64,000 nucleotides of DNA from an uncultured Flavobacteriaceae bacterium (GTDB lineage: Bacteria > Bacteroidota > Bacteroidia > Flavobacteriales > Flavobacteriaceae), in contig CALSLW010000002.1 of NCBI GenBank assembly GCA_943787295.1, forward strand, positions 648,189 through 712,188. The letters are read 5' to 3'. This document shows, in pieces, positions 14,745-17,202 of the stretch (within the stretch, counting starts at the first letter, position 1; every line of letters starts with the position of its first letter). Position numbers and translations under genes: made by a program. The notes under the pieces are model-generated. The model did no database searches. It was not told the DNA's origin and saw nothing but the letters and a program-made list of their open reading frames with translations.

Positions 14745-15686
14745 TTATTTTTTTAAGCCTAATTCTTTTAAGCGTTCTTCTAAAAATTCTCCCGCGGTAC
14801 AATCTTCATAGGCCTTTGGGTAAGCTTCGCTAACACAATCATCAAGGCAGTTCAAGGGCATGTCAGCGCTAGGATGCATAAAGAAGGGGACAGAATAGCG
14901 AGAGGTTCCCCATAATTCTCTTGGTGGATTAACTACTTGATGTAAAGTCGATTTTAACTTGTTGTTGGTCAAGCGGGCCATCATATCTCCCATATTGATG
15001 ATTAACTCTCCTTCTTCAGCAATGGCGTCTATCCAGTCGCCTTCTTTTGTCATGACTTGGAGGCCTTTTCCTTGCGCACCCATCAAGAGTGTAATCAAGT
15101 TGATATCTCCGTGAGCCGCCGCTCGAACAGCGTTTATTGGCGCGGTTTTAATGGGGGGATAGTGAATTGCTCTTAAAATAGAATTTCCATATGCGACATA
15201 TTCATCAAAATAATCTTCAGGCAAATTAAGGTGTAATGCGATGGCTTGTAAAATGGATTGTGCTGTTTTTTCAAGGGTTTGAAAAATCTCTTTCCCAATA
15301 GTGTTAAAAGTGGGGAGTTGCTCTACTGTAATATTGTCAGGATAGATGGGGCCATTTTCTTTTTTTCGGTATTGACCAAAATGCCAAAACTCTTTTAAGT
15401 CTCCCTCTGTTCTTCCCTTTGCACTTTCTTTTCCAAAAGAAGTGTAGCCGCGTTGACCGGCTAATCCTTCAATTTCATAGGCTCTTTTTTGGGCTTCGCC
15501 CAAATCAAAAAAAGCGTTGATTTCTCGATAGAGAAGATCGGTTTGTTCGTTGCTTAAATAATGTCCTTTAAGAATCACAAAACCAATATTTTCAAACGCT
15601 TTCCCTAAATCATTTACAAAAGCTTGTTTGAGGGAAGAATCATTAGACAAAAAGTCATTTAAATCTACGCGAGGAATATTTTTCAT
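14745..15686 (-). CDS. Isopenicillin N synthase-like 2-oxoglutarate/Fe(II) oxygenase
   Basis: A 313-residue cytosolic dioxygenase. The start at 15686 (MKNIPRVDLNDF) is chosen because a longer frame would run into the terminator hairpin at 15727-15752. The N-terminal DIOX_N domain has 'FENIGFVILKGH'. The double-stranded beta-helix carries the Fe ligands HGD (about 191) and distal His in 'TLHQVVNPP' (about 247), and the 2-oxoglutarate-binding RYS (about 262). The family hydroxylates or desaturates small molecules; the substrate is unknown. It heads an operon with the ABA4-like and PepSY genes. A weak promoter box (TATTTTTA, complement of 15705-15712) may serve it; otherwise transcription must pass the upstream terminator. 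Confidence 0.85.
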   Translation of the reverse strand: MKNIPRVDLNDFLSNDSSLKQAFVNDLGKAFENIGFVILKGHYLSNEQTDLLYREINAFFDLGEAQKRAYEIEGLAGQRGYTSFGKESAKGRTEGDLKEFWHFGQYRKKENGPIYPDNITVEQLPTFNTIGKEIFQTLEKTAQSILQAIALHLNLPEDYFDEYVAYGNSILRAIHYPPIKTAPINAVRAAAHGDINLITLLMGAQGKGLQVMTKEGDWIDAIAEEGELIINMGDMMARLTNNKLKSTLHQVVNPPRELWGTSRYSVPFFMHPSADMPLNCLDDCVSEAYPKAYEDCTAGEFLEERLKELGLKK

Positions 15687-15726: not shown

Positions 15727-15752
15727 AAAAGCAGACCCATCGGTCTGCTTTT
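15727..15752 (-). terminator. Intrinsic terminator / possible attenuator
   Basis: On the minus strand AAAAGCAGACC (15752-15742), loop GATG, GGTCTGCTTTT (15737-15727) continues into a T-rich run. This is a textbook rho-independent terminator with an 11-bp perfect stem. It ends the short SD-led transcription unit above it and lies 40 bases before the oxygenase start. A separate 16-base palindrome, TTATCTAATTAGATAA (15751-15766), abuts it and could form a competing hairpin. Confidence 0.85.
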
Positions 15753-15775
15753 ATCTAATTAGATAAGGAGTAGGA

Positions 15776-15838
15776 TTAAAATGCCCCGTTAAAAGGCACC
15801 TTTTGTCCGTTACTCCCTAAATGTTGTTCATAAGACAT
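15776..15838 (-). CDS. 20-codon ORF with near-perfect Shine-Dalgarno
   Basis: The ORF encodes MSYEQHLGSNGQKVPFNGAF. AAAGGAGGTG lies upstream with 6 bases between AGGAGG and ATG. This is close to full complementarity to the 16S rRNA tail, in a lineage where such sites are nearly absent; the other genes here, apart from the one at 34394, show none. It is flanked by its own promoter-like box (15901-15908), a leader hairpin (15871-15886) and a terminator 23 bases after the stop. The peptide is hydrophilic with no signal or membrane segment, so its act of translation may matter more than its product. Alternatives: a leader peptide controlling the oxygenase operon, an sRNA that binds ribosomes, or a true microprotein. 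Confidence 0.55.
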   Translation of the reverse strand: MSYEQHLGSNGQKVPFNGAF

Positions 15839-15842
15839 AAGA

Positions 15843-15852
15843 CACCTCCTTT
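15843..15852 (-). promoter_or_regulatory. Strong Shine-Dalgarno AAAGGAGGTG
   Basis: Ten bases complementary to the anti-SD end of 16S rRNA, optimally spaced from ATG 15838. In Bacteroidia the anti-SD is known to be sequestered by bS21/bS18/bS6, with SD use documented for the rpsU autoregulatory site, so a strong SD here suggests regulated translation. Confidence 0.7.
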
Positions 15853-15870
15853 CTACATTAGATTAAACAT

Positions 15871-15886
15871 CACTGTTGTCACAGTG
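15871..15886 (-). repeat. Leader hairpin of the mini-gene
   Basis: CACTGT-gaca-ACAGTG on the minus strand, a 6-bp perfect stem with a 4-base loop, about 20 bases upstream of the strong SD. It lies between the promoter-like box and the SD, so it would be near the 5' end of the transcript. Confidence 0.5.
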
Positions 15887-15900
15887 CGAAATACTCAACA

Positions 15901-15908
15901 CAAATTTA
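15901..15908 (-). promoter_or_regulatory. Promoter -7 box for the mini-gene
   Basis: TAAATTTG on the minus strand is an exact TAnnTTTG match, 26 bases below the antiporter stop. It gives a leader of about 55 bases before the SD-led ATG. The -33 region is T-rich without a clear TTTG. Confidence 0.45.
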
Positions 15909-15933: not shown

Positions 15934-17202
15934 CTAGTTCACAATTTTTTTGAGGGTTAGTCCTTGCACTAAAATGGTAAATAATACCACGGCATAGGTC
16001 AAGATTAAAATCAAGCCTTTTGCGTCGCCCATAGCATCAGGTAGATTCAAGGCAAGGGCAATACTTAATCCTCCTCTAAGGCCTCCCCAGGTGATGATCA
16101 AAGCAGTTTTTGGTTCAAATTTTTTCTTGAGCGAAAGGATTCCAATAGGAACACTCACTCCTATCCAGCGTGATCCCACCACTAAGGCAATGACCAGTAG
16201 AATGATAAAAATATAATTGAGTTTAAAATCTCCAAATAATGGAATAATCTCAAGACCTATCAAGATAAATAGCACCGCATTAAGGGTCTCGTCTAAGAGG
16301 TGCCAAAATTTATAGACATAGTCTCCCATGGCTTTTTGAACCCCGTCTTCTTCTTTATCTGTATCGATATTTTGATTGAGGAATAAGCCCATAACCACGA
16401 CTCCTAACACAGCAGAAAAATGAAAATAATGTGAAATTATCGGCAGTAAAAGCACAAGAGAAAGTGTTACTAGTACTTCTAATTCTAGGTGCTCATTTTC
16501 GATATATTTGAGTAGTTGTAAGCCTAAATAACCCATTAAAGCTCCTAGTCCTACTCCCCCGATTACTTCTGTAGCAAATAAAGAGGCCACACTTGCCGCC
16601 GTGACATTTTCAGCCCCTCCTATTTTAATTCCTAAAAGGGTAAGAAAAACCACTACCCCGATCCCGTCGTTGAAGAGAGACTCTCCCGCAATACGAGTTT
16701 CAGTAATCGAAGACAGATTCATTTTCTTGACCATGGCTAAAACTGCAATAGGATCTGTAGGCGCAATTAATGCGCCAAAGAGTAAGCAGTCCACATAAGT
16801 TAAACCCATTTCTGATAAACCAAAAAAGGACTGCTGAACTAACCAATGCAAACCAGTTCCTACCGTAAAAGTGGAAAAAATCACCCCAAAACAAGCCAGA
16901 AATAAAATCGTCAAACGGTCCTTGACTAATTCGTGCACATTAACACTTATCGCTCCTGCAAAGAGTAAAAAAGGAAGCATAACATTGACCAGTAAATCAC
17001 TGAAGTCAAACTCTTTTGTTAAGCTTGTAGCGGCCTCCAAAAAGGAAGGAAAAATCAGCCCTAAACCTAAAACACTTAAAGAGAGCACTATGGCTAAAAT
17101 CATCAACCCAATGGTCATGGGGAGTTTTAATAAGCGTAAATTAATGAGTGAAAAAGCTGATGCAAGGATCAGCAATAAGGTAGTCAATTCAAGTACTTCC
17201 AT
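15934..17202 (-). CDS. Na+/H+ antiporter, CPA1/NhaP type
   Basis: A 422-residue inner-membrane protein with about 12-13 helices. 'APTDPIAVLAMVKK' (about 143) and 'GESLFNDGIGVVVF' (about 172) carry the Asp residues that bind the cation in CPA1 exchangers. 'WGGLRGGLSIALAL' near the C-terminus is also family-typical. There is no long cytoplasmic tail, so it is the short bacterial form. It exchanges Na+ (or K+) for H+ and suits a marine cell with sodium stress. It is transcribed separately from ribE, which ends 36 bases upstream on the same strand. Confidence 0.92.
   Translation of the reverse strand: MEVLELTTLLLILASAFSLINLRLLKLPMTIGLMILAIVLSLSVLGLGLIFPSFLEAATSLTKEFDFSDLLVNVMLPFLLFAGAISVNVHELVKDRLTILFLACFGVIFSTFTVGTGLHWLVQQSFFGLSEMGLTYVDCLLFGALIAPTDPIAVLAMVKKMNLSSITETRIAGESLFNDGIGVVVFLTLLGIKIGGAENVTAASVASLFATEVIGGVGLGALMGYLGLQLLKYIENEHLELEVLVTLSLVLLLPIISHYFHFSAVLGVVVMGLFLNQNIDTDKEEDGVQKAMGDYVYKFWHLLDETLNAVLFILIGLEIIPLFGDFKLNYIFIILLVIALVVGSRWIGVSVPIGILSLKKKFEPKTALIITWGGLRGGLSIALALNLPDAMGDAKGLILILTYAVVLFTILVQGLTLKKIVN

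Follow-up and report, generated by a model that had tools for sequence, protein, structure and literature searches.

A conserved, unannotated mini-gene with an extended Shine-Dalgarno sequence in marine Flavobacteriaceae, possibly a second client besides rpsU of ribosomes with an exposed 16S tail

The window analyzed in this study is a stretch of 64,000 nt from an uncultured member of Candidatus Arcticimaribacter (Flavobacteriaceae). A mini-gene lies on the minus strand at positions 15908-15727, between two genes of the same strand that are outside the element. The upstream neighbor encodes a Na+/H+ exchanger-type antiporter (15934-17202; PF00999, E 6.3e-56), and the downstream neighbor encodes a 2OG-Fe(II) oxygenase (14745-15686; PF14226 and PF03171). 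The longest frame of the oxygenase opens at 15740, inside the terminator of the mini-gene; the ATG at 15686 is the likelier start. The initial annotation had read a promoter box, a hairpin, a Shine-Dalgarno (SD) sequence, a short ORF, a palindrome and a terminator in the mini-gene, and each was found in its place. The promoter -7 box TAAATTTG (TAnnTTTG, 15901-15908) is followed by the 5' hairpin CACUGU-GACA-ACAGUG (DNA CACTGT-GACA-ACAGTG, 15871-15886) and the extended SD UAGAAAGGAGGUGU (15842-15855). The mini-ORF has 20 codons including the ATG and encodes MSYEQHLGSNGQKVPFNGAF (15776-15838, with the ATG at 15838 and the TAA at 15778-15776). The end of the element is an intrinsic terminator, a stem-loop and then a T run (15727-15752). 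The 16-base palindrome TTATCTAATTAGATAA (15766-15751) is present but not conserved; of 42 distinct sequences aligned, only L001, L003 and L004 have it. The conserved stretch at this site is the post-stop motif UCCUUAUCUA (DNA TCCTTATCTA, 15769-15760), which is exact in 31 of the 42. Judged by its sequence, the mini-gene is a real, conserved and unannotated gene.

The box TAnnTTTG stands at about the same upstream distance in 49 of 55 element copies. The copies without it are L011, L036, L037, L041, L044 and L076, the last of which ends at a contig edge. The folding z of the 189-nt region was -5.2, and none of 200 shuffles was equally stable. The element is most likely a free-standing gene for a structured mini-mRNA of about 170 nt, with a predicted promoter and terminator of its own. 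In all copies except L076 (contig end) and L010, 53 of 55 in total, 23-53 nt separate the end of the antiporter gene from the aligned element that follows. Such proximity would suit an element of the antiporter gene, in its 3'-UTR or otherwise acting in cis, that regulates or stabilizes the antiporter mRNA. We consider this very unlikely, because most copies have their own promoter box and because G011, the genome of L010, keeps the element with no antiporter match in an assembly that is 83% complete. In L010, the element lies between riboflavin synthase and the oxygenase; in the window too, riboflavin synthase and the oxygenase flank the antiporter and the mini-gene. Two members of the genus, G009 and G012, lack the element yet retain the antiporter, which indicates that the element is dispensable. 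At these loci (L100 and L097, respectively), the antiporter is directly followed by a convergent gene that by inspection resembles a potassium channel gene.

The downstream gene is the oxygenase in some genera, and it is unrelated or convergent in others (convergent in L034, L035 and L042). A short ORF and then a terminator ahead of a co-oriented gene, as seen in the window and several genera, would also be expected of a leader peptide and attenuator of the oxygenase gene. The variety of downstream genes contradicts this as a general function. Furthermore, 99.5% of alignment cells in the terminator stem are paired and the ORF has no run of codons for one amino acid, so that we find an attenuator scarcely credible. 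Since the downstream genes vary and no antiporter was detected in G011, which has the element, the element appears to be an independent unit. Its conservation apart from the neighboring genes agrees with the self-contained unit proposed at the outset.

The SD, the ORF and the hairpins are all conserved in close relatives. By blastn with the 196-nt region, the element was found in 17 of 19 genomes of Candidatus Arcticimaribacter, its own included. Among 41 genomes outside the genus, there was one match at E <= 0.001, which covered the terminator end alone. Candidatus Arcticimaribacter is described as the genus NS5_F of the NS5 marine group (PMC9122927). A covariance model (R1) gave 17 strong matches (E < 1e-11) in 397 genomes of the family, which fell in 9 of 237 genera. 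A further 23 genomes had weaker matches (E 1.5e-5 to 0.01). The weak matches outside the carrier genera were rejected as elements: the 7 of the 23 that were read are coding ends followed by unrelated terminators, with L056 partly seen. A second model (R2) recovered only the own element plus weak matches, one in 395 genomes of the order and three in 395 genomes of the class; the three in the class are coding ends with unrelated terminators. The order and class samples say little about the carrier genera, because they apparently hold no other carriers (none matched).

A 35-base pattern scan of a species-genome collection found at least 25 contigs, all titled as Flavobacteriaceae, Flavobacteriales or Arcticimaribacter MAGs, and several of them bear sea-water isolate names. 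This number is a lower bound, since the pattern requires the SD, the ATG and part of codons 2-8. Viral contigs gave no match to the same pattern, and phage and plasmid records gave no blastn match at E 0.01. The alignment used here holds 42 distinct sequences, 32 from the blastn and covariance searches and 10 from the pattern scan alone; the 10 add nothing on the SD, the ATG and codons 2-8, because the pattern demanded these. Taken at the level of sequence, the mini-gene is kept across a range of marine flavobacteria in nine genera. No account of the element was found in the literature searched. Rfam gave no match at gathering thresholds in the window and, at E up to 10, seven chance-level matches (best E 0.17); Flavo-1, which the initial annotation had suggested, was not among them. 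Pfam gave no match for the 20-aa peptide. The element thus belongs to no known family found in Rfam or Pfam, as had been judged by eye.

The SD was initially described as the ten bases AAAGGAGGTG (15852-15843). These bases are there, and the real match is longer, TAGAAAGGAGGTGT (15855-15842). Both 16S rRNA copies of the genome (G000) end in GGAACACCTCCTTTCTAGAG, with the tail ACACCTCCTTTCTA; the SD is therefore perfectly complementary to the 16S tail over 14 nt. The anti-SD tail is intact in both copies of G000 and also in G013 and G321. Usable 16S ends came from these 3 of 17 carriers, 13 others having no 16S match and G312 a non-rRNA match. The predicted SD/tail duplex (-22.5 kcal/mol) is the strongest among the 2065 ATG triplets of the window. 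The second-ranked ATG (15831) uses the identical SD, and the next unrelated site reaches -14.2 kcal/mol. For the 53 ORFs of at least 120 aa in the window, the median pairing is -2.3 and the best -12.6 kcal/mol. These values fit the earlier remark that the SD is exceptional for a lineage in which SDs are hardly used. Over the 42 distinct elements, the SD pairing ranges from -14.0 to -22.7 kcal/mol with a median of -22.5, and it is below -13 kcal/mol, the rpsU-type criterion, in all 42.

Taken by itself, the motif is no rarer than expected by chance: a search of the whole genome with AAAGGAGGTN5ATG gave two matches against three for the reversed control, and one with the pattern GAAAGGAGGN{3,10}ATG gave two against four. 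The other genomic match to both patterns lies inside a 389-aa reading frame, which we take to be alanine-dehydrogenase-like. What raises the element above chance is its pairing energy (first of the 2065 ATGs), the folding of the 189-nt region and the conservation.

The post-stop motif UCCUUAUCUA resembles the 16S tail and could pair with the SD (94.7% of cells) or with the AGGA of codons 7-9. Masking of the SD by this internal mimic was considered. With the motif masked in the calculation, the median cost of opening the SD (31 elements) was 4.7 kcal/mol, only slightly below the 5.3 without masking. The opening cost of L001 was 5.9 kcal/mol, compared with 6.7 +/- 2.5 in 60 shuffles of its flanks (L001 alone was shuffled), and that of rpsU leaders ranged from 1.3 to 11.1 (12 genes). 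The opening cost is ordinary and the masking effect is small; therefore, sequestration is unsupported by folding energies, and the masking model was set aside despite the possible pairing. A pseudoknot between the GACA of the 5' loop and a UGUC near the SD was also rejected; by eye it is not kept in the L012 group.

Both outer hairpins covary across the 42 aligned sequences. The 5' hairpin is paired in 96.4% of cells, with two-sided changes in 3 of 6 pairs; its GACA loop and apical stem are nearly invariant, and the outer pairs covary. The terminator stem has two-sided changes in 6 of 10 pairs. The terminator loop C-GAUG-G (15742-15737, minus strand) is identical in 41 of the 42 sequences and differs only in L044, while the stem around it covaries. 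An invariant GATG loop as a general habit of terminators was rejected: it occurs at 1 of 37 terminator-like sites in the window, namely that of the element itself, and most of the 37 are probably chance.

Of five measures of the structure, four were higher than in any of 500 shuffles and the fifth (further pair types) was reached by 27 of the 500; on paired cells, the structure also exceeded all slid controls. A helix between the AGGA of codons 7-9 and the UCCU after the stop is paired in 89.7% of cells, with two-sided changes in 4 of 7 pairs. When 33 distinct pairs were counted separately, positions 4-6 after the first base of this helix exceeded shuffles (0.014, 0.000 and 0.010), and three positions beyond them showed no excess. 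Another helix, between the start-codon region and codons 12-13, is paired in 92.4% of cells, with two-sided changes in two pairs. Support is poor for a hairpin at the end of the ORF (70.5% paired in the alignment). The inner helices are partly mutually exclusive. Because the shuffles leave relatedness in, we rate the inner helices as moderately supported.

The ATG is present in all 42 sequences, 32 of which were not selected for it, and in all 32 of these it stands at normal SD spacing. The ORF has 19-21 codons in 39 of the 42 sequences and 26 codons in the other 3. Indels within the ORF are in multiples of three only; the flanking spacers change by single bases. The stop codon is TAA in 34 sequences, TAG in 7 and TGA in 1. 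The peptide roughly follows the pattern M[SF]Y-x-[NQ]-[HY]-L-R-N near the N-terminus, often has QQ-x-P in the middle and has [LF] as the last residue. The pN/pS ratio was calculated on an indel-free set of 29 ORFs (24 distinct) and compared with column permutations. For close pairs, the ratio over codons 2-20 was 0.51-0.56 (permutation fractions 0.09 and 0.04), and the third codon position was the most variable (21/29/47 at positions 1/2/3). Over codons 10-20, the ratio was 0.47-0.74, and about 3% of permutations were as low. Codons 2-9 were no better than permuted columns (0.66-1.08, permutation fractions 0.5-0.8; 0.99 in another count). For all pairs over codons 2-20, the ratio was 0.77, and 21% of permutations were as low. 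The mini-ORF is probably translated, and from the alignment the constraint is strong on the RNA and weak on the peptide.

These data bear on two further explanations. In an ordinary microprotein gene, the 20-aa peptide would be the product and the strong SD would merely secure its expression, with no link to bS21. The narrow range of ORF lengths, the in-frame indels, the variable third positions and the ratios over codons 10-20 all speak for such a gene. Nevertheless, codons 2-9 carry no purifying signal, the whole ORF is indistinguishable from permuted columns over all pairs, the hairpin loops are better conserved than the peptide, and SDs are described as rare in the order (PMC9976891); we hold this explanation to be rather unlikely. 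The second is a non-coding RNA that binds or titrates 30S subunits or the 16S tail through its SD-like stretch, with no productive translation and an incidental frame. It would explain why 14 nt complement the 16S tail and why the RNA is more constrained than the peptide, and the nearly invariant loops of the 5' hairpin and the terminator are not explained by translation. Translation is suggested instead by the in-frame indels, by the exchange of one stop codon for another and by the ATG at normal spacing in every unselected sequence (and in the 10 selected ones), and a non-coding RNA seems to us distinctly unlikely.

In ribosomes of Bacteroidia, the 16S tail is described as hidden by bS21, bS18 and bS6 (McNutt et al. 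2023, PMC9976891). According to the same paper, ribosomes lacking bS21 favor strong-SD mRNAs, and strong-SD reporters and rpsU go up upon bS21 depletion. The SDs of rpsU are characteristically below -13 kcal/mol, and SD control in Flavobacteriales was suggested to be limited to rpsU (PMC9976891). By pairing energy, the SD of the mini-gene is of the rpsU class. The mini-gene does not encode bS21, as its 20-aa peptide has no Pfam match, and the rpsU of this genome lies elsewhere (G000:C1:850441-850593). A match to rpsU was found in 16 of the 17 carrier genomes. Of the 17 rpsU genes read in carriers, 12 have an SD of -17.4 to -21.3 kcal/mol. The extended SD of rpsU is absent in the sampled genomes of two genera, g101 and g85 (four genes, -1.5 to -2.6 kcal/mol): L109, L114, L119 and L120, from G122 and both copies of G330 in g101 (G330 is listed with 7% contamination) and from G106 in g85. 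In g85, G321 has an intact 16S tail, and the mini-gene SD reaches -22.7 kcal/mol in g101 and -17.0 in g85. The rpsU gene L111 (G093, genus g72) has a weak SD (-9.9 kcal/mol). Besides an intact rpsU, G013 has another S21-like match near a contig end (G013:C2:811634-811787; L121, L122), which is broken and contains an in-frame stop.

Among the 16 carrier genomes in which both could be read, the mini-gene SD is predicted to be stronger than the rpsU SD in 14. It is weaker in G061 (-17.5 compared with -20.1 kcal/mol) and G312 (-14.0 compared with -17.4). Both rpsU and the mini-gene have an extended SD in 11 of these 16. From the analogy with rpsU, we infer that the mini-gene may be translated by bS21-free ribosomes.

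In this study, we believe, with somewhat better than even confidence, that the element is a free-standing mini-mRNA read preferentially by tail-exposed ribosomes, and that it would be a second extended-SD client besides rpsU. By analogy with Flavobacterium johnsoniae, ribosomes containing bS21 hide the tail and would initiate poorly on the mini-mRNA, and 30S subunits without bS21 would favor it. Translation of the mini-ORF would then depend mainly on the presence of tail-exposed ribosomes. The output is the least certain step. Constraint is far stronger on the RNA than on the peptide, and for this reason ribosome binding and translation may be no less important than the 20-aa peptide itself. 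The output could be the capture of tail-exposed 30S subunits, or the control of the fold and stability of the RNA itself. A related model is possible, and we put it forward tentatively: the main job of the RNA would be to catch 30S subunits with an exposed tail, bS21-free or damaged, and translation of the mini-ORF would serve as the read-out or the release. Such an RNA would act independently of rpsU autoregulation, since its SD is kept in two genera whose sampled rpsU genes have none. A translation-state sensor, an SD-dependent regulatory RNA and a new microprotein had been proposed for this locus; the strong conservation of the RNA and the weak conservation of the peptide narrow these options and do not separate them.

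A cultured member of the genus, Arcticimaribacter forsetii AHE01FL, is described in PMC9122927, so that the purpose of specialized bacterial ribosomes could be addressed directly by experiment. If translation of the free-standing mini-mRNA by tail-exposed ribosomes holds, this conserved gene, which is unannotated and has an SD comparable to or longer than that of rpsU, may be a further client of bS21-free ribosomes. An ORF of 20 codons could escape a screen of annotated genes. If the RNA mainly catches tail-exposed 30S subunits, an SD-dependent regulatory RNA would exist in a lineage in which SD use is believed to be almost gone.

Dual-function small RNAs that carry a short ORF are known, for example SgrS/SgrT. 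The mini-gene resembles them as a predicted small stand-alone transcript that is both a structured RNA and an mRNA, and differs in its dominant feature, an SD whose complement extends over 14 nt of the 16S tail. With leader-peptide attenuators such as Bacteroid-trp (RF01692), it shares a short ORF followed by a terminator. Unlike them, it has no fixed downstream gene, and the Rfam match to Bacteroid-trp has E 6.7 and lies on the other strand. Rfp18, which acts on protease mRNAs, and other small transcripts of Flavobacterium psychrophilum are likewise short, independent and structured, and come from the same family (PMC9723704). By the description in that paper, those transcripts typically lack coding potential, and we met no mention of an SD for them, unlike the mini-gene. 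The closest likeness is to the rpsU mRNA (PMC9976891). Both have a long SD pairing with the 16S tail below -13 kcal/mol, and both are transcribed alone, which for the mini-gene is a prediction. The mini-gene differs in that it does not code for bS21, that its 20-codon ORF is followed at once by a terminator and that it is strongly structured; moreover, the sampled g101 and g85 genomes retain the SD of the mini-gene, and their rpsU genes have none.
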